Shown here: positions 2,259-55,615 of the stretch, in pieces
How positions within the stretch are numbered: position 1 is the first letter of the stretch
How the letters are laid out: every line of letters starts with the position of its first letter
Assembly: GCA_022823225.1 (NCBI GenBank)
Contig: JAJDXM010000086.1
Coordinates: 1 to 64,000, forward strand
Direction: 5' to 3'
Length of the DNA stretch: 64,000 nt
Origin: Gemmatimonadota bacterium
GTDB taxonomy: Bacteria; Gemmatimonadota; Gemmatimonadetes; Longimicrobiales; Gaopeijiaceae
Translations under genes and position numbers: made by a program
The notes under the pieces: model-generated
The model's input: the letters and a program-made list of their open reading frames with translations, nothing else
Databases searched by the model: none
What the model was told of the DNA's origin: nothing

Positions 2259-4997
2259 TCAGCCGATCCAGTAGCTCGCCTTCAGCATGAAGACGTCGTC
2301 GCCGGGCTGCCGGAGCAGGGTGCCCAGGTCGCTGCCGAAGGAGAAGTCGCCCTGGCGCGTGTAGTGATCCCGGCCCTGCGACCACACCGCAAAGAGGGTG
2401 GAGCCGGGACGGTACTCCCAGCGGAGCACGAGGTTCGACCTGAACTGCTTGACGTTGAAGTCCGGGGCTCCGTACGACTCGGTCCTGCCGTCGCCGTCGA
2501 TGTCGGCGCGGACCGTGCCATCCTCGCCGGCTTCGGTGGGCACCGGGGCGAACCGCTCGGCGTAGGAGCGCGCCCGCGGATCGGCGACGCGCTTGAAGTC
2601 GCCGTAGGAGCCTGCCGACACGAAAGGCTGGGCGTACAGCTGGAGCGACAGGGAGGGCGAAAAGGTCCAGTCGGCGCGGGCCGTGATTCCGGCGGTGGTC
2701 TGCGCCAGCCGCCCGAAGAGGTACACGGGGTCTTCCGGGTTGAAGCGGCCGACCCACTGCAGGTCCTCGCGCCGCCAGTTCACGAACGGGCCGGCCGACA
2801 CGGTCGCCCGGGAGGATGGCCGCAAGCGCAGGCCCATGTCGGCCCCGTAGCTCCACGACCCGGTCTCCGGGGTCACCTGCCAGTTGTTGCCGGTTTCGAT
2901 CTGCAGTGGCTTGCGCGAGTCGGAGAAGAAGCCGAACCAGCCGCCCCAGAAGGGGTCCTGGCGGAGCATGGGGCCGCCGCGGAGCGCGACGTTGCTGTAT
3001 CCGCCGGTCTGCCGCATGACGCCGGCGAACCCGCCCCAGAAGTTCTTCAATGTGAAGCTGCCGTTGACGTTTCCGCCTTTCCGGAAGGGCTCGCCGCCGA
3101 AGCTGTAGGGCGCCCACGCGTTCACGTTGAGGTTCCAGCGCTGAAATGGTCCGGACGGCCGGAAGCGGTTGTAGCCCGCCCATATCCAGGGAGCCACGAA
3201 GTCCGCCTCGCGCATGAACCCCAGGTCGTTGGCCTCGAAGCCGGGCGAACGCGCCATGACGCCGCCGCCATAGCGCCAGTAGCCGCCGGAGATCTTCGCG
3301 AAGGAGGCGGCGCCGGCCCACCCGCTCAAGCTCGTGCGGCCAGGGTCGAAGTCGGTGTGGTCCGCGTCCGGCCGCTGGAAGTAGCGCGCCGGAGAGCGCT
3401 GCGTGCGGGTGACCGCGGCGGCCGAACCCCGCACGGCCGACCCCAGCACATAGCCGGATACGATGAAGCGGTCGTCGCCGAAGCGGTGACGGGCATCGAG
3501 GCCCGCCGTGTAGGCCTGGTCATGGAGGGCGAGGGACCTGGCGGCGCCGGACTCGCGCACGGTCCAGGTTGAGATGACGCCGAGGGCGCTCCGTCCTTCG
3601 CGGAAGTCCCGGCTGACACGCGCCATTCCGTACTGCGCGAACGGCTCGACGAGCTGTTCGCCGAGCGGGCCGGACCCGTCCGCCAGCCGTGCCTCTTCGG
3701 AGTTGGTGAGCGCGTGGAGCAGCCCCACGGTCCACCCGGAGCGGGTCTTGCCGGAGAGCTTCATCGCGCCGAGGATCCGCGTCTGCTCGGGCGAGTCCGC
3801 ATACGGCGCCGGAGCGTGCCCTCGCGGGGCCCTCCCGATGCGGCGGGAGTAGAACAGGCCCTCGCTGGCCATGTCGCCGTCGCCTTCGGAGAAGCGGAAG
3901 GTGAAGATGTTCGAACCCTCGACGAAGAAGGGCCGCCGCTCGGGGAAGAAGGTCTCGAAGGCCGTGAGATTGACCTGAGCGGGGTCCGCCTCGACCTGCC
4001 CGAAGTCCGGGTTGACAGTGACGTCCAGGGTGAGATCGGTGGTGATGCCGTACTTGACATCGGCCCCCGCCGTGGCGGAGAGGTCGTTCGGGCTGTGGAA
4101 GGGATCGCCCGGGCTGCTCGGGGCGCGCTGCAGCCGCGCAAGCGAGTATGGCAACACCTCGAGCCGGGTGGGCGGGGAGAGGTCTCGCAGACCGTGGAGA
4201 TCTCCGAAACGCGAGACCAGGGCCCCGTCCCCGCGCGAAATCGGTGCCCACAGGCTCCGCTCCAGGTGCCTCCCGATGAAGCGCGCGAAATTGATCCCCC
4301 AGGTCTGCACCGCGCCGCCGTCGAAGCGGAGCTGGGAGTAGGGGATGCGGAACTCGGCGGTCCAGCCCTCTTCGTCGATGCGGGTCGCGACGTCCCACAC
4401 GGCGTCCCAGGAGTCGTCCTCCTCGACGTCGTCGTAGAGGTATCCGTCGGACTTCACGCCGGCCGGGTTCACGCCGAAGCGGAAGGCGGTGCGCCGGTCG
4501 TGGTAGCTGTCGATGACCACGTCCAGCCAGTCCGAGTGCGGCCGTTCGTCGCGCCGGGCCAGCCGCGCCACGATGGAATCCGGCGCGCTGTCGAAGGCCC
4601 GGACGCCTACGTACAGGGCGTCGTCGCCGTAGAGTACACGCGCCTCGGTGGCCTGGGAGGCCGGCATCCCCTCGTTCGGTTCGAACACGATGAACCCCGC
4701 GGCTACCATCGCCGACGTCCAGTCGGGCTCGTCGAGTACGCCGTCGATCGCCGGTGCCGGCCCGGTCAGGCGCAGGGCCTCCAGTGAAGGCGGAACGGCG
4801 CGTCCGCCCTGGCCGGCGGGCGGAGAATCCGCGCCGAGGGCCTGTCCCTGGAGCGGGGCGGGCGCCGCTCCCCAGATGGCTGCGATCGCGGCCAACAGCA
4901 GTCCCGTGTTGGCCCCCGACGCGGTTGTGGCGGCCGCGGGCGGTCCTGCGTTGGCCTCCGCTCCGTGCGCGGCGGCCTGTCTTATCGTCATCCCCAT
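2259..4997 (-). CDS. Outer-membrane beta-barrel protein with CBM9-like N-terminal domain (DUF5916 type)
   Basis: 912 residues. A hydrophobic stretch around residues 30-50 ending in LQGQA is the likely signal peptide, although the n-region is long and a later start is possible. Residues about 72-270 form a carbohydrate-binding family-9-like domain (AIDGVLDEPDWTSA, then LYGDDALYVGVRAFDS and DVVIDSYHDRR). The remainder is rich in alternating aromatic/polar strands and ends with KASYWIG, as expected for a barrel of the DUF5916 family. These are common in Bacteroidota and Gemmatimonadota outer membranes; the cargo is unknown. GAGGAGG lies a few bases before the ATG, a strong ribosome binding site. 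A paralogue with the same architecture is at 60381-62588. Confidence 0.8.
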   Translation of the reverse strand: MGMTIRQAAAHGAEANAGPPAAATTASGANTGLLLAAIAAIWGAAPAPLQGQALGADSPPAGQGGRAVPPSLEALRLTGPAPAIDGVLDEPDWTSAMVAAGFIVFEPNEGMPASQATEARVLYGDDALYVGVRAFDSAPDSIVARLARRDERPHSDWLDVVIDSYHDRRTAFRFGVNPAGVKSDGYLYDDVEEDDSWDAVWDVATRIDEEGWTAEFRIPYSQLRFDGGAVQTWGINFARFIGRHLERSLWAPISRGDGALVSRFGDLHGLRDLSPPTRLEVLPYSLARLQRAPSSPGDPFHSPNDLSATAGADVKYGITTDLTLDVTVNPDFGQVEADPAQVNLTAFETFFPERRPFFVEGSNIFTFRFSEGDGDMASEGLFYSRRIGRAPRGHAPAPYADSPEQTRILGAMKLSGKTRSGWTVGLLHALTNSEEARLADGSGPLGEQLVEPFAQYGMARVSRDFREGRSALGVISTWTVRESGAARSLALHDQAYTAGLDARHRFGDDRFIVSGYVLGSAVRGSAAAVTRTQRSPARYFQRPDADHTDFDPGRTSLSGWAGAASFAKISGGYWRYGGGVMARSPGFEANDLGFMREADFVAPWIWAGYNRFRPSGPFQRWNLNVNAWAPYSFGGEPFRKGGNVNGSFTLKNFWGGFAGVMRQTGGYSNVALRGGPMLRQDPFWGGWFGFFSDSRKPLQIETGNNWQVTPETGSWSYGADMGLRLRPSSRATVSAGPFVNWRREDLQWVGRFNPEDPVYLFGRLAQTTAGITARADWTFSPSLSLQLYAQPFVSAGSYGDFKRVADPRARSYAERFAPVPTEAGEDGTVRADIDGDGRTESYGAPDFNVKQFRSNLVLRWEYRPGSTLFAVWSQGRDHYTRQGDFSFGSDLGTLLRQPGDDVFMLKASYWIG

Positions 4998-38275: not shown

Positions 38276-38926
38276 TTGACAGGTAACGGCCTTCTCACTG
38301 CCAGGCCGTTCAGGCCCAGGCTCCCGGAATTGGATCTGCCGATCTCGCCCTATCAGCGCACCACCGCCGCCGCCCTTCAGCCCGGCACTCCCGTGCATGC
38401 CACGACCGTCATCGCCGTGGCCCGCGACGGCCGGGTGGCCATGGCGGGCGACGGACAGGTGACGATGGGGGAAACCGTGGTGAAGGGTGCGGCGCGCAAG
38501 GTGCGCCTGCTTCGCGACGGGAACATCCTTGCCGGCTTCGCGGGGGCGGTGGCGGACGCCTTTACCCTCTTCGCGAAGCTGGAAGGCAAGCTTGAACGCT
38601 GGCCCGCGAACCTTCCCCGCGCCTGCGTGGAGCTGGCGAAGGAGTGGCGCACCGACCGCTACCTTCGCCGTCTCGAGGCCCTGCTGGCGGTCGCCGACAA
38701 GGATCACCTCTTCCTGGTCGGCGGCGACGGAAACGTGATCGAGCCCGACAAGCCCGTCCTGGCGATCGGCTCGGGCGGTGCCTACGCCCTCGCGGCGGCG
38801 CGCTCGCTCTACGAATCCACCGAAATGGACGCCCCCACCATCGCGCGCCGCTCGCTGGAGATCGCTGCCGACATCTGCGTCTTCACCAATCGGGAAATCA
38901 CCGTGCTGGAGCTGGATTCCCCATGA
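38276..38926 (+). CDS. hslV: ATP-dependent protease peptidase subunit HslV
   Basis: The outer limit of the frame is TTG 38276 (216 residues). The proteolytic core begins at HATTVIAV, matching B. subtilis ClpQ (FHATTIFAV), where Thr is the nucleophile. A later start such as GTG 38393 (VHATTV) or TTG 38330 would give a much shorter propeptide, and none has a clear Shine-Dalgarno sequence. Core motifs include [38 protein letters not shown] and [16 protein letters not shown]. HslV forms a dodecameric peptidase with HslU. Its stop overlaps the hslU ATG. Confidence 0.85.
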
Positions 38927-40476
38927 AGTCAACATCCGTTTCCGCCCCTTCCCCTCCCGCTGCCACACCGGCCGCGCCGGCCCGCGACGAGCCCCCCCAC
39001 TGGCTCGACCAGCTCACACCGCGCGAGGTCGTTGCCGAGCTGGACAAGTACATCGTGGGACAGTCCGAGGCGAAGAAGGCTGTGGCGATCGCGCTCAGGA
39101 ACCGATGGCGGCGCCAGCAGGTCGAGGACGAGCTGCGCGACGAGATCCTCCCCAACAACCTGATCATGATCGGGCCGACCGGGGTGGGGAAGACCGAGAT
39201 CGCGCGGCGGCTCGCGCGCCTGGCCGGCTCGCCGTTCGTCAAGGTGGAGGCGTCCAAGTTCACCGAGGTGGGGTACGTGGGCCGCGATGTCGAGTCGATG
39301 GTGCGCGACCTGGTGGACACGGCGGTCGCCATGGTAAGGGCCGCCCGCGAGGACGAGGTGGAGGAGGAGGCCGTGCGCCGCGCGGAGGAGCGAATGCTGG
39401 ATCTGCTCCTCCCGGATCCCAGGCCGGCGGACAAGCCGAAGCAATCCGGAACGGAAGACGGCGAGGTCGCCGAACACGTCGATCCGGTGGACGCGTCCGC
39501 GCACCCCCAGGTTTTCGTCGCGGGCCCCCCGGGGGGCGCCGGAAAGACCGAGCGGGTAGACCCGAACGGCGACGCTTCGATGGCGCAGCGGAGGGCCCGC
39601 ACGCGCGAGAAGCTGCGGCGCCTGCTCCAGGACGGCCACCTGGAGGACCGGACCGTGGACCTGGACGTGCAGCAGGGCTCCTCGATCAGCGGCATGATGT
39701 TCCCGGTCGGGGGCATGGAGGGAATGGACCTCAACTTCACCGAGATGCTCCAGGACATGCTGCCCAGGCGCTCAAAGCGGCGCACGGTCACCGTCGCGGA
39801 GGCGCGCCGAATCCTGATCCAGGAGGAGCTGGAACGTCTGGTGGACATGGACGAGGTGGTGAACGAGGCGCTGGACCGGGCCGAGGAGATCGGAATCATC
39901 TTTCTCGACGAGCTCGACAAGGTTGCCGGCCGGCGCGGCGGGGCGGGTCCCGACGTGAGCCGCGAAGGTGTGCAGCGCGACCTCCTCCCCATCGTGGAGG
40001 GGTGCAATGTCCAGACCAAGTACGGCTTCGTGCGCACGGACCACATACTTTTCATCGCGGCAGGTGCCTTCCATGTGGCCAAGCCGGCCGACCTGATCCC
40101 CGAATTGCAGGGACGATTCCCCATTCGCGTGGAGCTGCAGAGCCTCAGCGCTCCGGAATTCGTCCGGATCCTGCGCGAACCGCGCAATGCGCTCGTGCGC
40201 CAGTACGCGGCCCTGGTCGAGACCGAGGGTGCCGCGCTGGAGTTCACCGATGGCGGTATCCGGGAGATCGCGCGCATCGCGGCCGACCTGAACGACCGGA
40301 TGGAGAACATCGGGGCGCGGAGGCTGCGCACTGTGCTCACCACCCTCCTCGAAGATCTGCTCTTCGGCCTCCCGGACGACGGCGTCGGCGAGAAGGTGGT
40401 CGTCACCTCCGACTTCGTGCGGTCCCGGCTCGAGAAGATCGCGTCCGACGACGACCTGAGCCGCTACATCCTCTGA
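38923..40476 (+). CDS. hslU: ATP-dependent protease ATPase subunit HslU
   Basis: 517 residues from ATG 38923. An AAA+ unfoldase for HslV. Walker [17 protein letters not shown] near 76, the GYVGRDVE pore loop near 107, an I-domain insertion (about 125-290) longer than in E. coli (443 aa) and rich in charged residues, Walker [14 protein letters not shown] near 325, and the C-terminal RYIL peptide that docks into HslV. Together with ClpXP and Lon, the window carries three cytosolic AAA proteases. Confidence 0.92.
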
Positions 40477-42580: not shown

Positions 42581-44191
<1,611 letters not shown>

Positions 44192-45474: not shown

Positions 45475-47895
<2,421 letters not shown>

Positions 47896-47903
47896 CGCGC
47901 CCG

Positions 47904-49175
47904 TCAGGCCTCCTTCCTCTGTGCCTCGGGAAGGAGAACGAGCAGAGGAGGAACCTTCCCGCTCACCGATTCGGGGGTGACGACCACCTCGCGTACGTCA
48001 CCGCGGGAGGGAAGCTCGAACATCACGTCGCGCATCGCCCTCTCCAGCACGGCGCGCAGGCCGCGCGCGCCCGTTCCGCGCTCGAGCGTCTGCCGCGCGA
48101 TCTCGCTTAGCGCTCCCGGATCGAAGGTCAGCCCGACGCCCTCCAGCTCGAACATCTTCTGGTACTGCCTGACCAGCGCGTTCTTCGGCTCCCGCAGGAT
48201 CTGCACGAGCGAGTCCTCGTCGAGGTCCTCCAGCTGCACGGTGACCGGCAGCCGTCCCACCAGTTCGGGGATCAGCCCGAATCGCTGCAGGTCCTCCGGT
48301 TCGAGCCAGATCATCGGATCGTCCTCCCCGGCATCGGCCGCGGAAATATCCGGTTCCTCTTCCGGCGCGTCCGTCCCGGTCACGTCGACGAAGCCGATCT
48401 GCCGGCGGCCGAGACGGTGCTCGACGATCTTGTCGAGCCCCTCGAAGGCTCCTCCGCAGATGAAGAGGATGCTCGTGGTGTCGATCTGGATGTACTCCTG
48501 CTGGGGGTGTTTGCGGCCTCCCTGGGGCGGCACGTTCGCCACCGTCCCCTCCAGGATCTTGAGGAGCGCCTGCTGGACCCCCTCGCCGGAAACGTCGCGC
48601 GTGATCGAGGGGTTCTCCGATTTGCGGGCGATCTTGTCGAGTTCGTCGATATAGACGATGCCGCGCTCGCAGTCGGCGATGTTGAAGTCGCTGGCCTGCA
48701 GCAGGCGCACCAGGATGTTCTCGACATCCTCGCCCACGTATCCGGCCTCGGTGAGGGTCGTGGCGTCGGCGATCGTGAAGGGGACCTGGAGAATCCGCGC
48801 CAGCGTCTGCGCCAGCAGCGTCTTCCCGACCCCCGTAGGCCCGACCAGGAGCACGTTCGCCTTGTCGATCTCCACGCCGCCGAGCTTGTCGCCCTGGTGC
48901 ACGCGCTTGTAGTGGTTGTAGACCGCGACCGAAAGCGCCCGTTTCGCCTGCTCCTGCCCGATCACGTACTCGTCGAGCGCCGCCTTGATCTCCTCCGGCT
49001 TGAGCGTCTCGATCGACGCGTCCTGGTTCTCGCGCTCCTCCTCTTCGGCGAGGATTTCATTGCACAGCGAGATGCACTCGTTGCAGATGTAGACCGAGGG
49101 GCCGGAAATGAACTTCTTGACGGACTCCTTCGACTTTCCGCAGAAGCTGCACCTGAGGTGTCTGTCGCTCGACAT
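47904..49175 (-). CDS. clpX: ATP-dependent Clp protease ATP-binding subunit ClpX
   Basis: 423 residues. An N-terminal zinc-binding domain (CSFCGKS then CNECISLC, four Cys), AAA+ Walker [17 protein letters not shown] near 125, pore loop GYVGEDVE, Walker [14 protein letters not shown] near 190, and sensor-2 region [16 protein letters not shown] near 380. It unfolds ssrA-tagged and other substrates for ClpP. A short acidic insertion ([15 protein letters not shown], about 290-305) is longer than in E. coli. 8-base spacing to clpP. Confidence 0.95.
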
Positions 49176-49183
49176 TGGGCCTC

Positions 49184-49798
49184 CTATTCCGACGGCTCGC
49201 CGCCGTTGCGGCTCACGCCCTTGCGCAGGACCTGGTCGACCAGCCCGTACTCGACCGCCTCCCCCGCGCTCATCCAGCGGTCGCGGTCGACGTCGGTGTT
49301 GATCTTGCCGATCTTCTGGCCGGTGACGTCGGCCAGGATCCGGTTCAGCCGCTCGCGGGTCCCCAGGATCTCCTTCGCGGCGATCTCGATGTCGGCCGCG
49401 GTGCCCTGGTAGCCGGAAGACGGCTGGTGGAGCATGATCCGCGCATTGGGCAGCGCGTTGCGCTTTCCCTTGTCCCCCGCGGCGAGCAGCAGCGCCCCCA
49501 TCGAGGCGGCCATCCCGACGCAGAATGTGGAAACCGGGGCGCGCAGGTGGTTCATCGTGTCGTAGATCGCCAGGCCCGCGTACACGCTGCCCCCGGGGGA
49601 GTTGATGTACAGGTAGACGTCGCGGTCCGGGTCGTCGGCGTCGAGGAACAGCAGCTGCGCGACGATGATGTTCGCCACGTGGTCGTCGATCGAGCTGCCC
49701 AGAAAGACGATGCGGTCCATCAGCAGCCGGCTGAAGATGTCGTAGCTGCGCTCGCCGCGGCTGGTGCGCTCGATCACGTAGGGCGGATAGATCGCCAT
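49184..49798 (-). CDS. clpP: ATP-dependent Clp protease proteolytic subunit ClpP
   Basis: 204 residues from ATG 49796-49798, picked because GGAGGAG lies 8-14 bases before it and the family starts PPYVIERT; an in-frame TTG at 49828 would add ten residues. The catalytic Ser is in [11 protein letters not shown], the His in MLHQPSSG, and an Asp follows in the DVDRDRW region. Tetradecameric peptidase partner of ClpX. Gap to tig is 37 bases. Confidence 0.94.
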
Positions 49799-49835
49799 CC
49801 TTGAAGGCTCCTCCGTCACGGCAGTCAACGTTCTC

Positions 49836-51345: not shown

Positions 51346-52905
51346 CTACCGGGGCACGCGGAGGTTGACCATCGTGGACTGCCACTGCGACTCCCCGACC
51401 GGGCAGGAGGCGATCATCGAGACCACCTCTCCGGCGTCCACGCCCCTCAGCGCGTCCTCGTAGTCACCGGTGCCGCCGATCGTCCGCCCGTCGATCTCCT
51501 GGATGACGCACGGCCAGCCGAGCCCCTTACGGTGGGCCGGACCCCCCATCTGCACCTCTCCGATCACGACGCCGGCGGTACTTTCGAGTCCCCAGTCGCG
51601 GGCGATGTCGGTCGTAATGTCGGCGACCACGACGCCGATCTTGTCGGCGGTGCTGGTCGCCGGCGCGACGGTCTCGGCTACCGGGCGGGGGTATTCCAGC
51701 TCTTCCAGCCGCACCGTCACGTCCATGGGTTCACCGTCCCGGTAGAGGGTGATCCGCACCCTGTCTCCCGGCTCCTTGAGCGCGACGATGTGCTGCAGGT
51801 CGTTCGCCTGGCCGACCCTCTCGCCGTCGACGGCCACGATCACGTCTCCCATCCGGATCCCTGCCCGGTCCGCCGGACCTCTCGCCGCCACCGTCTGGAT
51901 GAGCGCACCGGAGACGTCCGGCAGACTCAGCGCCTCGGCGTCCTCGGACGCGACGTCTTGCAGGCTGACGCCCAGCAGGGCGCGCCGGATCCGCCCATGC
52001 GCGATCAGGTCCTCCATGACCCCGTGGGCGAGGTCGATCGGGATCGCGAAGCCGTACCCCTGGTAGACCCCGGTCCGCGAAACGAGCGCCGAGTTGATCC
52101 CGATGACCTGTCCGCGGAGGTTCACCATGGGGCCGCCCGAATTGCCCGAATTGATCACGGCGTCCGTCTGGATGAAGTCCTCGACCGCGTAGCGCGGGTT
52201 CACCTCCCGGAAGGCGGGGTTCTGCCGCAGGCTCTCATCGATAAGGTCCAGCGACCGGCCCACCGCCGAGACGATCCCGGCGGTCACCGTGTAGTCGAGA
52301 CGGGTCGAACTCCGGCGGAATCCCGGGTTTCCGATCGCCAGAACCCACTCTCCGACCTCGACCTCGGCGGACGATCCCAGAGACACGGCGGGGAAGTCAT
52401 CGCCGTCGATCCTGATCACCGCGACATCGGTAGTCGGATCGGCCCCCCCCACCCGAGCTCCGAATTCGCGTCCGTCGGGCAGCGTCACGCTGATGCGCTC
52501 GGCGTTCTGGATGACGTGGTTGTTCGTCATCACGTATCCGTCCGGGGAGATGATGAACCCGCTTCCGCTGGCCGGCTGGATCTCCGGCAGGCCCCGCTGC
52601 GGCTGCTGGCGCTGGCGGAACCAGTCCCGCGTGTCCGGTTCCCGCACCAGCCGCCGCGTGGTCTCGATTCTCACGACCGAGGGCGTTACCGCCTCCGCGA
52701 CGTTCACGAACGCTTCGCTGAGGTCGAGGGCGGGGCGCACGGCCTCCTCGCCGACGGCCGGAGCGGTCTGGACCGCCGGCAACCTGCCCGCCGTCTCCAC
52801 GAAACCGAACTGGGACGCCAGCCCCAGTCCGAAGAGAAAACAGGCCGCCACCGCGAGCGCGGCCCTGGTCTTTGCCTTCAGCGGGTCGTACATCTTTCCC
52901 CTCAT
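51346..52905 (-). CDS. HtrA/Deg-family periplasmic serine protease with two PDZ domains
   Basis: 519 residues. A membrane anchor or signal peptide at about 13-32 (AALAVAACFLFGLGLASQF). The trypsin-like domain carries the triad: His in VMTNNHVIQN, Asp in DPTTDVAVIRI, Ser in VINSGNSGGPMVN. Two PDZ domains follow (about 300-390, LLGVSLQDVASEDAEAL; about 410-510, VVADITTDIARDWGLESTAG). It degrades or refolds envelope proteins under stress. Only 9 bases after dnaK, so cytosolic and envelope stress genes share a transcript. Confidence 0.9.
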   Translation of the reverse strand: MRGKMYDPLKAKTRAALAVAACFLFGLGLASQFGFVETAGRLPAVQTAPAVGEEAVRPALDLSEAFVNVAEAVTPSVVRIETTRRLVREPDTRDWFRQRQQPQRGLPEIQPASGSGFIISPDGYVMTNNHVIQNAERISVTLPDGREFGARVGGADPTTDVAVIRIDGDDFPAVSLGSSAEVEVGEWVLAIGNPGFRRSSTRLDYTVTAGIVSAVGRSLDLIDESLRQNPAFREVNPRYAVEDFIQTDAVINSGNSGGPMVNLRGQVIGINSALVSRTGVYQGYGFAIPIDLAHGVMEDLIAHGRIRRALLGVSLQDVASEDAEALSLPDVSGALIQTVAARGPADRAGIRMGDVIVAVDGERVGQANDLQHIVALKEPGDRVRITLYRDGEPMDVTVRLEELEYPRPVAETVAPATSTADKIGVVVADITTDIARDWGLESTAGVVIGEVQMGGPAHRKGLGWPCVIQEIDGRTIGGTGDYEDALRGVDAGEVVSMIASCPVGESQWQSTMVNLRVPR

Positions 52906-52914
52906 CGTTCTCTG

Positions 52915-54843
52915 CTACCGTCCTTCGTCCACGATTTCGTAGTCGGCCTCCACCACGTCCTCGTCCTCCTCCGCGGCGGCCTCCGCGGGCTCGGCCGGCG
53001 CCTCGTCCGCCTCCGCGCCCTCCTGTGCCGCCTCGGCCGCCTGCGCCTGGTACATCTCCTGGCCCGCCGCGCTGAAGGCCTGCATCAGCTCGTCCCGCGC
53101 CTCGTTGATCTCGGCGGTGTCGCTGCCCTTGAGCGCCTGCCTGCCGCGTTCCAGCGCCGCGTCGAGCCGCTCACGCGTCTCGGACGACACCTTGTCTCCC
53201 CATTCGGCCGTGTCCTTCTCGACCTGATACACCAGCGAGTCCAGATGGTTGCGGGCCTCGACCTCCTCGCGCCGCCGCTTGTCCTCCGCCTCGTTCTTCT
53301 CGGCGTCCACGACCATCTTGTCGATCTCCGCGTCGCTCAGCCCGCTCGACGCGTCGATCCGCACCTTCTGCTCCTTCTCGGTCGCGCGGTCCTTGGCGGT
53401 CACGTGCAGGATGCCGTTGGCATCGATGTCGAAGGTGACCTCGACCTGCGGCACGCCCCGGGGCGCCGGCGGGATCCCGGTCAGCTGGAACTTCCCGATG
53501 GTGCGGTTGTCCAGCGCCATCTTGCGCTCGCCCTGCAGCACGTGGATCTCGACCGTCGTCTGGTTGTCCTCGGCGGTCGAGAAGACCTCCATCTTGCGCG
53601 TGGGGATGGTCGTGTTGCGCTCGATCAGCGAGGTCATCACGCCCCCGAGCGTCTCGATGCCGAGCGACAGCGGGGTCACGTCGAGCAGCAGCACGTCCTT
53701 GACGTCGCCGGCCAGCACGCCGCCCTGGATCGCGGCGCCGACCGCCACCACCTCGTCCGGGTTCACCCCACGGTGCGGCTCCTGCCCGAAGAACTCCTCC
53801 ACGACCTCCTGGATCTTCGGGATCCGCGTCGAGCCGCCGACCAGCACGACCTCGTCGATCTCGTCCGGGTTCATGCCCGCGTCCTCGAGCGCCTTGCCCA
53901 TGGGCGGGATGGTCCGCTGGATGAGGTGGTCGACCAGCTGCTCGAACTTCGCGCGCGAGAGCGTGTAGTTGAGGTGCTTCGGCCCCTCCTGGGTGGCGGT
54001 GATGAAGGGCAGGTTGATGTCGGTCGAAGTGGTCGACGAGAGCTCCATCTTGGCCTTCTCGGCGGCCTCCTTGAGCCGCTGCAGCGCCATCGAGTCCTTC
54101 GACAGGTCGATCCCCTGGTCCTTCTTGTACTCGGCCACCAGCCAGTCGATCAGCACCTGGTCGAAGTCGTCGCCGCCCAGGTGGGTGTCGCCGTTGGTCG
54201 CCTTCACCTCGAAGACCCCGTCGCCGATCTCGAGGATCGAGATGTCGTAGGTCCCGCCGCCGAGGTCGAAGACGGCGATCTTCTCGTCGGTCTTCTTGTC
54301 GAGCCCGTAGGCCAGGGCGGCCGCGGTCGGCTCGTTGATGATCCGCTTGACCTGAAGGCCGGCGATCTTGCCCGCGTCCTTGGTGGCCTGCCGCTGCGCG
54401 TCGTTGAAGTACGCCGGCACGGTGACCACCGCGTCGGTGACGGACTCGCCCAGGTAGTCCTCTGCGGTCTGCCGCATCTTCTGCAGGATGATCGCGGAGA
54501 TCTCGGGCGGCGTGAAGCTCTTGCCGCCGTTGGGAAGGTTGACCACGACCCTGTCCTTGCTGTCGCGCGCCACCTTGTAGGGGACCCGCTTGCGCTCGGT
54601 CTCCACCTCCGAGTAGCGCATGCCCATGAAGCGCTTGATCGAGAAGACGGTGTTCTCGGGGTTGGTGATCGCCTGGCGCCGCGCGACCTGTCCGACGAGC
54701 CGCTCCCCGTCCTTCGCGAATGCGACCACCGAGGGGGTCGTGCGGCCGCCCTCCGAGTTGGCGATGACCGTGGGTTCGCCGCCCTCCATGACCGCGACCA
54801 CGGAGTTGGTGGTGCCCAGGTCGATTCCTATGGTCTTGCCCAT
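52915..54843 (-). CDS. dnaK: Molecular chaperone DnaK (Hsp70)
   Basis: 642 residues from ATG 54841-54843, preceded by CAAGGAAGAC. Nucleotide-binding domain starts [20 protein letters not shown] and contains [13 protein letters not shown] and [14 protein letters not shown]; substrate-binding domain begins near 390 ([15 protein letters not shown]). The lid is helical and ends in an acidic tail. No grpE or dnaJ neighbours: the downstream gene is htrA. Upstream lie a sigma-54-like promoter and the five-copy palindrome array. Confidence 0.96.
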
Positions 54844-54932
54844 CTGTCTTCCTTGTTCGGTGCCGGCGCGCGGCCGGCGGGGTCTGTTTCGGTGCATGTG
54901 GATGCACCTTCGAAGCTAACCGGAATACGGGG

Positions 54933-54948
54933 AGCAAGTAGTGTGCCG
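54933..54948 (-). promoter_or_regulatory. Candidate sigma-54 (-24/-12) promoter of dnaK
   Basis: The minus strand reads CGGCACACTACTTGCT. Compared with the consensus TGGCACG-N4-TTGC[AT], only the first T and the last G of the -24 box differ, and the strictly required GG-N10-GC spacing is exact (GG at 54947-54946, GC at 54935-54934). Transcription would begin about 12 bases past the GC, near 54922, leaving a leader of about 80 bases before dnaK. No equally good sigma-70 site was seen in this interval. Confidence 0.6.
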
Positions 54949-54979
54949 GAACGGTGGAGGCCGGGAGCGGCCGGGAAGT

Positions 54980-55147
54980 CTGCCATTTTGGCAGGTTTCG
55001 CGCCGGGGTCTGCCATTTTGGCAGGTTTTCGAGGGCGCGGATGACGGGGACTGCCATTTTGGCAGGTTTCACGGGGGCGGGCCACGGGGGCTGCCATTTT
55101 GGCCGCTTCCGAACCGGGCGGGGAACCGGCGGCGGCCATTTCGGCGG
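54980..55147. repeat. Five helically phased imperfect palindromes (CTGCCATTTTGGCAG) upstream of dnaK
   Basis: Copies start at 54980, 55010, 55051, 55091 and 55133. The first three are identical 15-mers with arms CTGCCA/TGGCAG around TTT and are followed by GTTT; the fourth has a degraded right arm (GGCCG) and the fifth is further diverged (CGGCCATTTCGGCGG). Spacings of 30, 41, 40 and 42 are close to whole helical turns, so all sites face one side of the DNA. Their centres lie about 65-218 bases upstream of the predicted dnaK start, the range used by enhancer-binding activators. They could alternatively serve the plus-strand gene at 55391. Confidence 0.85.
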
Positions 55148-55390
55148 CCCGAGTGCTGCGGAACCCGCAACGGAATGGAGAGCGCCGGTGCTTCTCCGCA
55201 GGAAGCCAATCGGGTGTTCATTGAGAGGTGTCGCAACATGATCCACTCTCCGCGCACCCTTCGGCATTCATTAAGGGTGAGCGCCCGTGTAACAGGCTCG
55301 CATGGGCGGCCCGCCTGGCCGGCGCCGAGCACCGGATTGCACGGCTGGGCGGCGGAGAGGAGTCTATTGCTGAAGGAGGATGGTTCGCAC
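55148..55390. other. Intergenic remainder between the palindrome array and the next gene
   Basis: I see no convincing gene here. Two related segments, TTCATTGAGAGGTG (55217) and TTCATTAAGGGTGAG (55267), repeat 50 bases apart and might mark start sites for the plus-strand gene. An in-frame ATG at 55239 could extend that gene's product N-terminally by about 50 residues, but it has no ribosome binding site, whereas GAAGGAGGA precedes ATG 55391. Confidence 0.4.
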
Positions 55391-55615
55391 ATGAAGCCCA
55401 GGGAGACGGACGATATGGTGAAAGGCGTCCAGATTGCGCTGGTGGACGGTGAGCCGAAGCTGGTGTTCTGGCGCATTGAGGACTTCCTCAGGGCGCTGAA
55501 CGCGCGCCGGGACACCGGTCTGCCGCTAACCAGCCCCAAGAGGGTCTGGGACGAGATCCACGATCGCTTCTGGCATTTGCTCAAGGACCCGGAGTTCAGG
55601 GAGGAACCCGAGTGA
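55391..55615 (+). CDS. Small hypothetical protein
   Basis: 74 residues. GAAGGAGGA lies about 10 bases before the ATG, a strong ribosome binding site. The product is charged and helical, with IALVDGEPKLVFWRIEDFLRALNARR in the middle and KRVWDEIHDRFWHLLKDPEF at the end; no signal peptide, membrane segment or Cys. I do not recognise the family. It overlaps the next gene by GTGA, so the two are translated together, suggesting a partner or regulator of the HD-domain protein. Confidence 0.6.
   Translation: MKPRETDDMVKGVQIALVDGEPKLVFWRIEDFLRALNARRDTGLPLTSPKRVWDEIHDRFWHLLKDPEFREEPE

Follow-up and report, generated by a model that had tools for sequence, protein, structure and literature searches.

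A phased palindrome array and a -24/-12 box upstream of dnaK point to sigma-54 control of chaperone and protease genes in Gemmatimonadota

The DNA upstream of dnaK in this Gemmatimonadota genome is judged, with good confidence, to be the control region of a sigma-54-dependent chaperone and protease regulon, for which the activator is most likely the protein encoded at 42581-44191. The window, i.e. the whole stretch of 64 kb that was analysed, contains dnaK on the minus strand (52915-54843, start codon 54843, 642 aa; NCBIfam PRK00290 and TIGR02350 above cut-off). Three exact copies of the putative enhancer palindrome TGCCATTTTGGCA were located upstream of it by site and shuffle counts (54981-54993, 55011-55023 and 55052-55064). 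A fourth, TGCCATTTTGGCC (55092-55104), is imperfect, and a fifth, GGCCATTTCGGCG (55134-55146), is decayed and keeps the helical register at 42 bp from the fourth. The consensus is TGCCA-N3-TGGCA and the spacing 30, 41, 40 and 42 bp. Five phased palindromes had been claimed in the initial annotation; positions and spacing agreed and all five sites were located, but since sites 4 and 5 are imperfect, the number has to be read as three exact and two decayed copies. The exact sequence TGCCANNNTGGCA occurs three times in the 64 kb, always upstream of dnaK (expected 0.04; three copies were reached in 0 of 100 shuffles).

The -24/-12 box CGGCACACTACTTGCT (54933-54948, minus strand) is placed between the palindromes and the start codon, with the centre of the first palindrome 40 bp from its -24 GG. 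The claim of a sigma-54-like box with exact GG-N10-GC spacing proved correct. The elements are close to TGGCACGN4TTGCW, and the box is the single match to the strict pattern YGGCACRNNNNTTGCW in the window (expected 0.08). Palindrome array and box were confirmed as real.

The source genome (4.19 Mb, 97 contigs) was scanned for further sites. Fifteen exact copies of CTGCCANNNTGGCAG were found, compared with 0.49 expected from base composition and 0.24 from a first-order chain. Thirteen of them form the arrays before dnaK (three), clpB (two), an hsp20 gene on contig C61 (seven) and a second hsp20 gene on C92 (one); near-exact sites accompany them in every array except that on C61. The remaining two (C32; C42:83345) are solitary. 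Furthermore, lon on C52 is preceded by three near-exact palindromes. A search near other stress genes had been proposed earlier, and the palindrome is indeed concentrated at dnaK, clpB, two hsp20 genes and lon and not scattered. Boxes of the -24/-12 type stand between array and gene at the first hsp20 gene (TGGCACGAAGCCTGCC), the second hsp20 gene (TGGCACACTCCCTGCA) and lon (TGGCAAGGATCGTGCA). RpoN is encoded in the genome (PF04552, E 4e-61) with a visible RpoN box ARRTVAKYR. The sigma-54 route for chaperone and protease control suggested beforehand is supported by this clustering, by the conservation of the boxes, by the phasing and by the genes for RpoN and an activator.

A search for paired palindromes covered 298 genomes of the phylum. 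The pattern was found in 22 of them besides the source genome, all but one belonging to the same family, and the reversed pattern used as control gave zero. Genes flanking these arrays were identified by homology to the chaperones of the source genome itself; dnaK, clpB, hsp20 and lon recurred, and boxes were detected at dnaK, at hsp20 and at lon. Genomes from all over the phylum that are without arrays nevertheless have a -24/-12 box at dnaK, in most cases together with one palindrome. For 26 genomes the 254 bp upstream of dnaK were scored. A box reaching at least 6/8 was detected in 22 of them (mean 0.49 and maximum 3 in 200 shuffled sets), with none in 104 further-upstream control intervals on the same strand and four on the opposite strand. 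A palindrome of at least 8/10 was detected in 23 (shuffles: mean 3.65, maximum 8; 16 of 104 control intervals). Both occur together in 20 of the 26 genomes, with G052 counted as negative although TGGCACATGCGTTGCA stands farther upstream there.

The candidate activator gene (42581-44191, plus strand) is predicted to encode an enhancer-binding protein with pseudo-receiver, AAA+ domain and Fis-type HTH (PF00158, PF02954). The Walker A motif GESGTGKE and the GAFTGA motif, which mark enhancer-binding proteins, are intact. The N-terminal domain is receiver-like (hhalign probability 97%), and it carries Thr at the position of the phosphoacceptor Asp, as in nearly all relatives; it thus lacks the phosphorylation site of NtrC-type response regulators. 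The gene lies within a cluster for proteostasis, in which all names except dnaK were assigned by sequence inspection. On one side are hslV-hslU (38276-40476, plus strand, upstream of the activator gene), argF and gcvT. On the other side follows a run with engB, a second Lon-type protease gene (45475-47895), clpX (47904-49175), clpP (49184-49828), a trigger-factor-like gene, a DegP/HtrA-like protease gene (51346-52905) and dnaK, the protease genes with coordinates being on the minus strand. The DegP/HtrA-like gene starts 9 bp after dnaK, stands in the same order in several relatives and is probably co-transcribed with dnaK. Among family members checked with both genes on one contig, the activator gene and dnaK are mostly separated by about 11-12 kb, and by 9 kb in genus g4. 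Some other families have the two genes 7-9 kb or much farther apart.

The source genome encodes about seven enhancer-binding proteins. It is hence conceivable, albeit unlikely, that the -24/-12 promoters are real and the palindromes are bound by a different one, for example a phosphorylatable NtrC-type protein encoded on C49 or C9, as both types are also widespread in the family. Presence or absence of such proteins was uninformative alone, both the window protein and the C49 type being near-universal. This was solved by the relative G034 (2.0 Mb, 95% complete), in which the orthologue of the window protein is the only enhancer-binding protein found (E <1e-20). Its dnaK has the box TGGCATGGACATTGCA with the palindrome TGCCAGAATGGCG 28 bp upstream; this box is one of two strict -24/-12 matches in the whole genome, the other being without a clear downstream gene. 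Orthologues of the C49 type were found neither in G034 nor in G134, and G034 yielded none of the C9 type either, but both genomes keep box and palindrome at dnaK. Of the candidates, the window protein alone was found in all 31 genomes tested (31/31), and it alone belongs to the proteostasis cluster and has orthologues linked to groESL in Bacteroidota. By elimination, synteny and orthology, the protein encoded at 42581-44191 is most likely the activator acting at the palindromes.

Two other proteins of this class were observed in the source genome. The C49 protein (L022; orthologues in G017, G064 and G160), the second near-universal one in the family, is encoded next to a gene for a sigma-70-family factor. 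A divergent AAA+ protein of the enhancer-binding type (C95:41341-41742, L028) gave a weaker Sigma54_activat match (E 2e-30) and had no clear orthologues in the relatives compared.

The distance from palindrome centre to -24 GG was determined for 22 genomes and amounts to 16, 16, 27, 27, 28, 28, 40, 48, 57, 57, 58 (six times), 59, 68, 69, 79, 80 and 91 bp. The best period is 10.45 bp (R=0.87, n=22), and none of 2000 random sets reached this R. G052 (wrong box), G001 (no palindrome) as well as G136 and G004 (weak palindrome or box) were left out; the distances in G136 and G004, 59 and 16 bp, agree with the phase as well. As the genomes are related, these statistics overstate independence; with one genome per genus, R is 0.89. 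Many different whole-turn distances are in use, a variety that common descent alone does not give. The spacing between sites inside arrays at sigma-54 promoters is likewise periodic (R=0.82 at 10.5 bp, n=39). Thus the sites are helically aligned, both among themselves and relative to the promoter, as in arrays of upstream activating sequences.

Some arrays do not conform. At clpB no canonical -24/-12 box stands between array and gene in the source genome or in most relatives, G225 being the exception. A conserved element TGGYCCG-N5-CTT lies upstream of this array, which is thus situated between the element and the start codon. A degenerate sigma-54 promoter at clpB, with the enhancers downstream of it, would be one possibility, a different use of the sites the other. 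The missing box at clpB counts against the main reading, as do arrays of genus g4 near amidohydrolase/HutF-like genes without a box and sites only 16-17 bp from the -24 GG, closer than classical enhancers. The clpB and g4 cases could be accommodated if the palindromes were operators of a regulator outside the sigma-54 system, repressor or classical activator, with the boxes incidental or serving other signals: the position of the clpB arrays is operator-like, and box-less g4 arrays near metabolic genes would fit. We consider this improbable, given that palindrome and -24 element are strictly in helical phase in 22 genomes, and that box and palindrome occur jointly at dnaK and at chaperone genes of other phyla.

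In genus g4, the palindrome pairs beside amidohydrolase/HutF-like genes are in helical spacing of 31 or 42-43 bp (L067, L072, L076, L073, L077, L092). In genera g6 and g16, a three-site array was observed between genes for a Fic-domain protein and an MFS transporter (L059 around 3950-4050; L087 around 3750-3850), where no strong box was found. Two further arrays in bins labelled Gammaproteobacteria (L140, L172) are probably binning errors, as they resemble the clpB regions of genus g4.

Bacterial heat-shock control is commonly exerted by sigma-32, HrcA, HspR or CtsR. RpoH was rejected as heat-shock sigma factor, as no match above cut-off was obtained in 19 genomes. CIRCE was detected neither in the window nor near hrcA-grpE-dnaJ in five genomes, and HAIR gave no match in the window with up to three mismatches. 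A gene for HrcA is present in 29 of 31 genomes; sigma-54 is therefore probably not the sole heat-shock regulator. Expression of dnaK from a housekeeping sigma-70 promoter or under HrcA/CIRCE, with the array of little effect, is very improbable: the presence of HrcA would favour it, but neither CIRCE nor HAIR was detected as described and no sigma-70-type promoter was found at 54780-55450, a weak test in this phylum. In five Gemmatimonadota genomes (L393-L397), hrcA lies near a dnaJ-like gene, with no CIRCE within four mismatches in stretches of 8-14 kb; the HrcA operator of Gemmatimonadota may differ from CIRCE.

The initial annotation held that the arrangement differs from the known heat-shock controls. 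This is only partly right, since sigma-54 chaperone promoters have been mapped in Flavobacterium psychrophilum (PMC9723704). There, according to the sections of that report covered here, -24/-12 promoters with mapped starts precede groESL, lon, dnaK, grpE-dnaJ, htpG and clpB; its authors noted three enhancer-binding proteins and in those sections assigned none as activator. Mapped promoters at the same set of genes count in favour of the main reading. Unlike the covered sections of that report, which give no enhancer motif, the present system has a motif, phased arrays, a proposed activator and an hsp20 member, and it belongs to another phylum. A position-specific matrix predicted GroEL, GroES, IbpA, GrpE, DnaJ and DnaK to be sigma-54-dependent in Bacteroidota and Planctomycetota (PMC12316311); Gemmatimonadota are not mentioned in its text, and in the parts covered neither an enhancer nor an activator is assigned. 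In a heat-shock array study of R. baltica, no rpoN regulation was reported, which neither supports nor refutes the present reading (PMC2754498).

Promoters of the NtrC/PspF type share the AAA+ activator with GAFTGA, the Fis-type HTH, palindromes upstream of a -24/-12 box and helical phasing. In contrast to them, the sites described here approach the -24 GG to 16-17 bp and number up to seven in register, the genes encode chaperones and proteases, and the receiver lacks the phosphoacceptor Asp. Control of dnaK, clpB, lon and hsp20 is shared with RpoH (sigma-32) and HrcA/CIRCE, whereas here RpoH is absent above cut-off and HrcA occurs without CIRCE at the genes examined. For the palindrome string, one unrelated human-genetics paper and no relevant one was found in the literature searched, which excluded most subscription journals. 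Given the mapped promoters of F. psychrophilum, the principle of sigma-54 chaperone promoters is known; the enhancer, the activator and the phylum-wide extent appear new, provisionally, in view of the scope of that search.

For the sigma-54 regulon we infer heat induction and propose the following mechanism. At dnaK, hsp20 and lon, RNA polymerase with RpoN would form a closed complex on the -24/-12 box, and degP behind dnaK would probably be served by the dnaK box as well. A dimeric AAA+ enhancer-binding protein, most likely that encoded at 42581-44191, would bind the TGCCA-N3-TGGCA palindromes. With the sites on one face of the helix, several dimers could come together and contact the polymerase, and the promoter would be opened through ATP hydrolysis by the activator. 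The activator is probably not regulated by a kinase, as the receiver lacks the phosphoacceptor Asp and Bacteroidota orthologues lack the whole domain; control by free chaperone or by proteolysis would be the most plausible input. Heat-shock control in Gemmatimonadota probably runs through this activator encoded near dnaK. Formerly, the sigma-54 chaperone route consisted of the promoters of one fish pathogen and a matrix prediction, with neither activator nor enhancer known. A putative enhancer and activator are now added to it, together with a phase rule and a pattern that spans the phylum. It thereby becomes directly testable how bacteria without RpoH might sense protein damage via an ATP-driven activator, and the palindrome is a motif by which the regulon can be sought in uncultured phyla.

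The best matches of the activator in Bacteroidota mostly extend from the AAA+ domain through the HTH with 38-43% identity and no N-terminal domain; two of them end before the HTH in the search. A match in Latescibacterota is similar (45% identity). Orthologues of Bacteroidota share the HTH motif LGIxERTLYRKIKEY, the HTH ending with LGISERTLYRKIKEY or close to it. On two Bacteroidota contigs (L384, L390) the order is activator, lptE-like gene, hypothetical gene and groES-groEL; on our reading, a secG gene lies between the activator gene and groES-groEL.

A blind scan of 84,980 species for palindrome pairs yielded at least 80 loci. When Gemmatimonadota-like loci are set aside, the start of a ClpB, Hsp20, DnaK or GroEL gene is within 500 bp at nine of the loci listed, and all but one of the other chaperone matches in 600 kb of listed loci fall within the same nine. 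A -24/-12 box between palindromes and gene was detected, among the loci listed, in Planctomycetota (hsp20, groEL, dnaK), Kuenenia (hsp20) and one member of the Latescibacterota (hsp20). The nearest palindrome is 75-112 bp upstream of the box, the classical enhancer distance. Bacteroidota arrays among the matches listed (e.g. L103, L148, L163) do not adjoin the chaperone genes tested; hence the same palindrome is not yet established for Bacteroidota promoters. We suggest tentatively, leaning slightly against it, that TGCCA-N3-TGGCA and one orthologous, non-phosphorylated activator family constitute an ancient sigma-54 heat-shock regulon of Gemmatimonadota, Bacteroidota, Latescibacterota and Planctomycetota. 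It would rank with RpoH and HrcA, and the activator would be a sensor of proteotoxic stress.

Finally, a hairpin element of about 56 bp (core GCAGATCGTGCAGTCC), with a few compensatory changes in its arms and no match in Rfam, was observed before a TGCCANNNTGGCA site. Copies were located in L007 (9250-9360), L009 (4442-4552), L063, L066, L078, L086 and L094. In every copy, across genera, exactly 64 bp separate the start of the hairpin core from that of the palindrome. An integrase-like ORF lies near the element in L007 and L010, and the hairpin may be a mobile element, with the palindrome as its target or its cargo.
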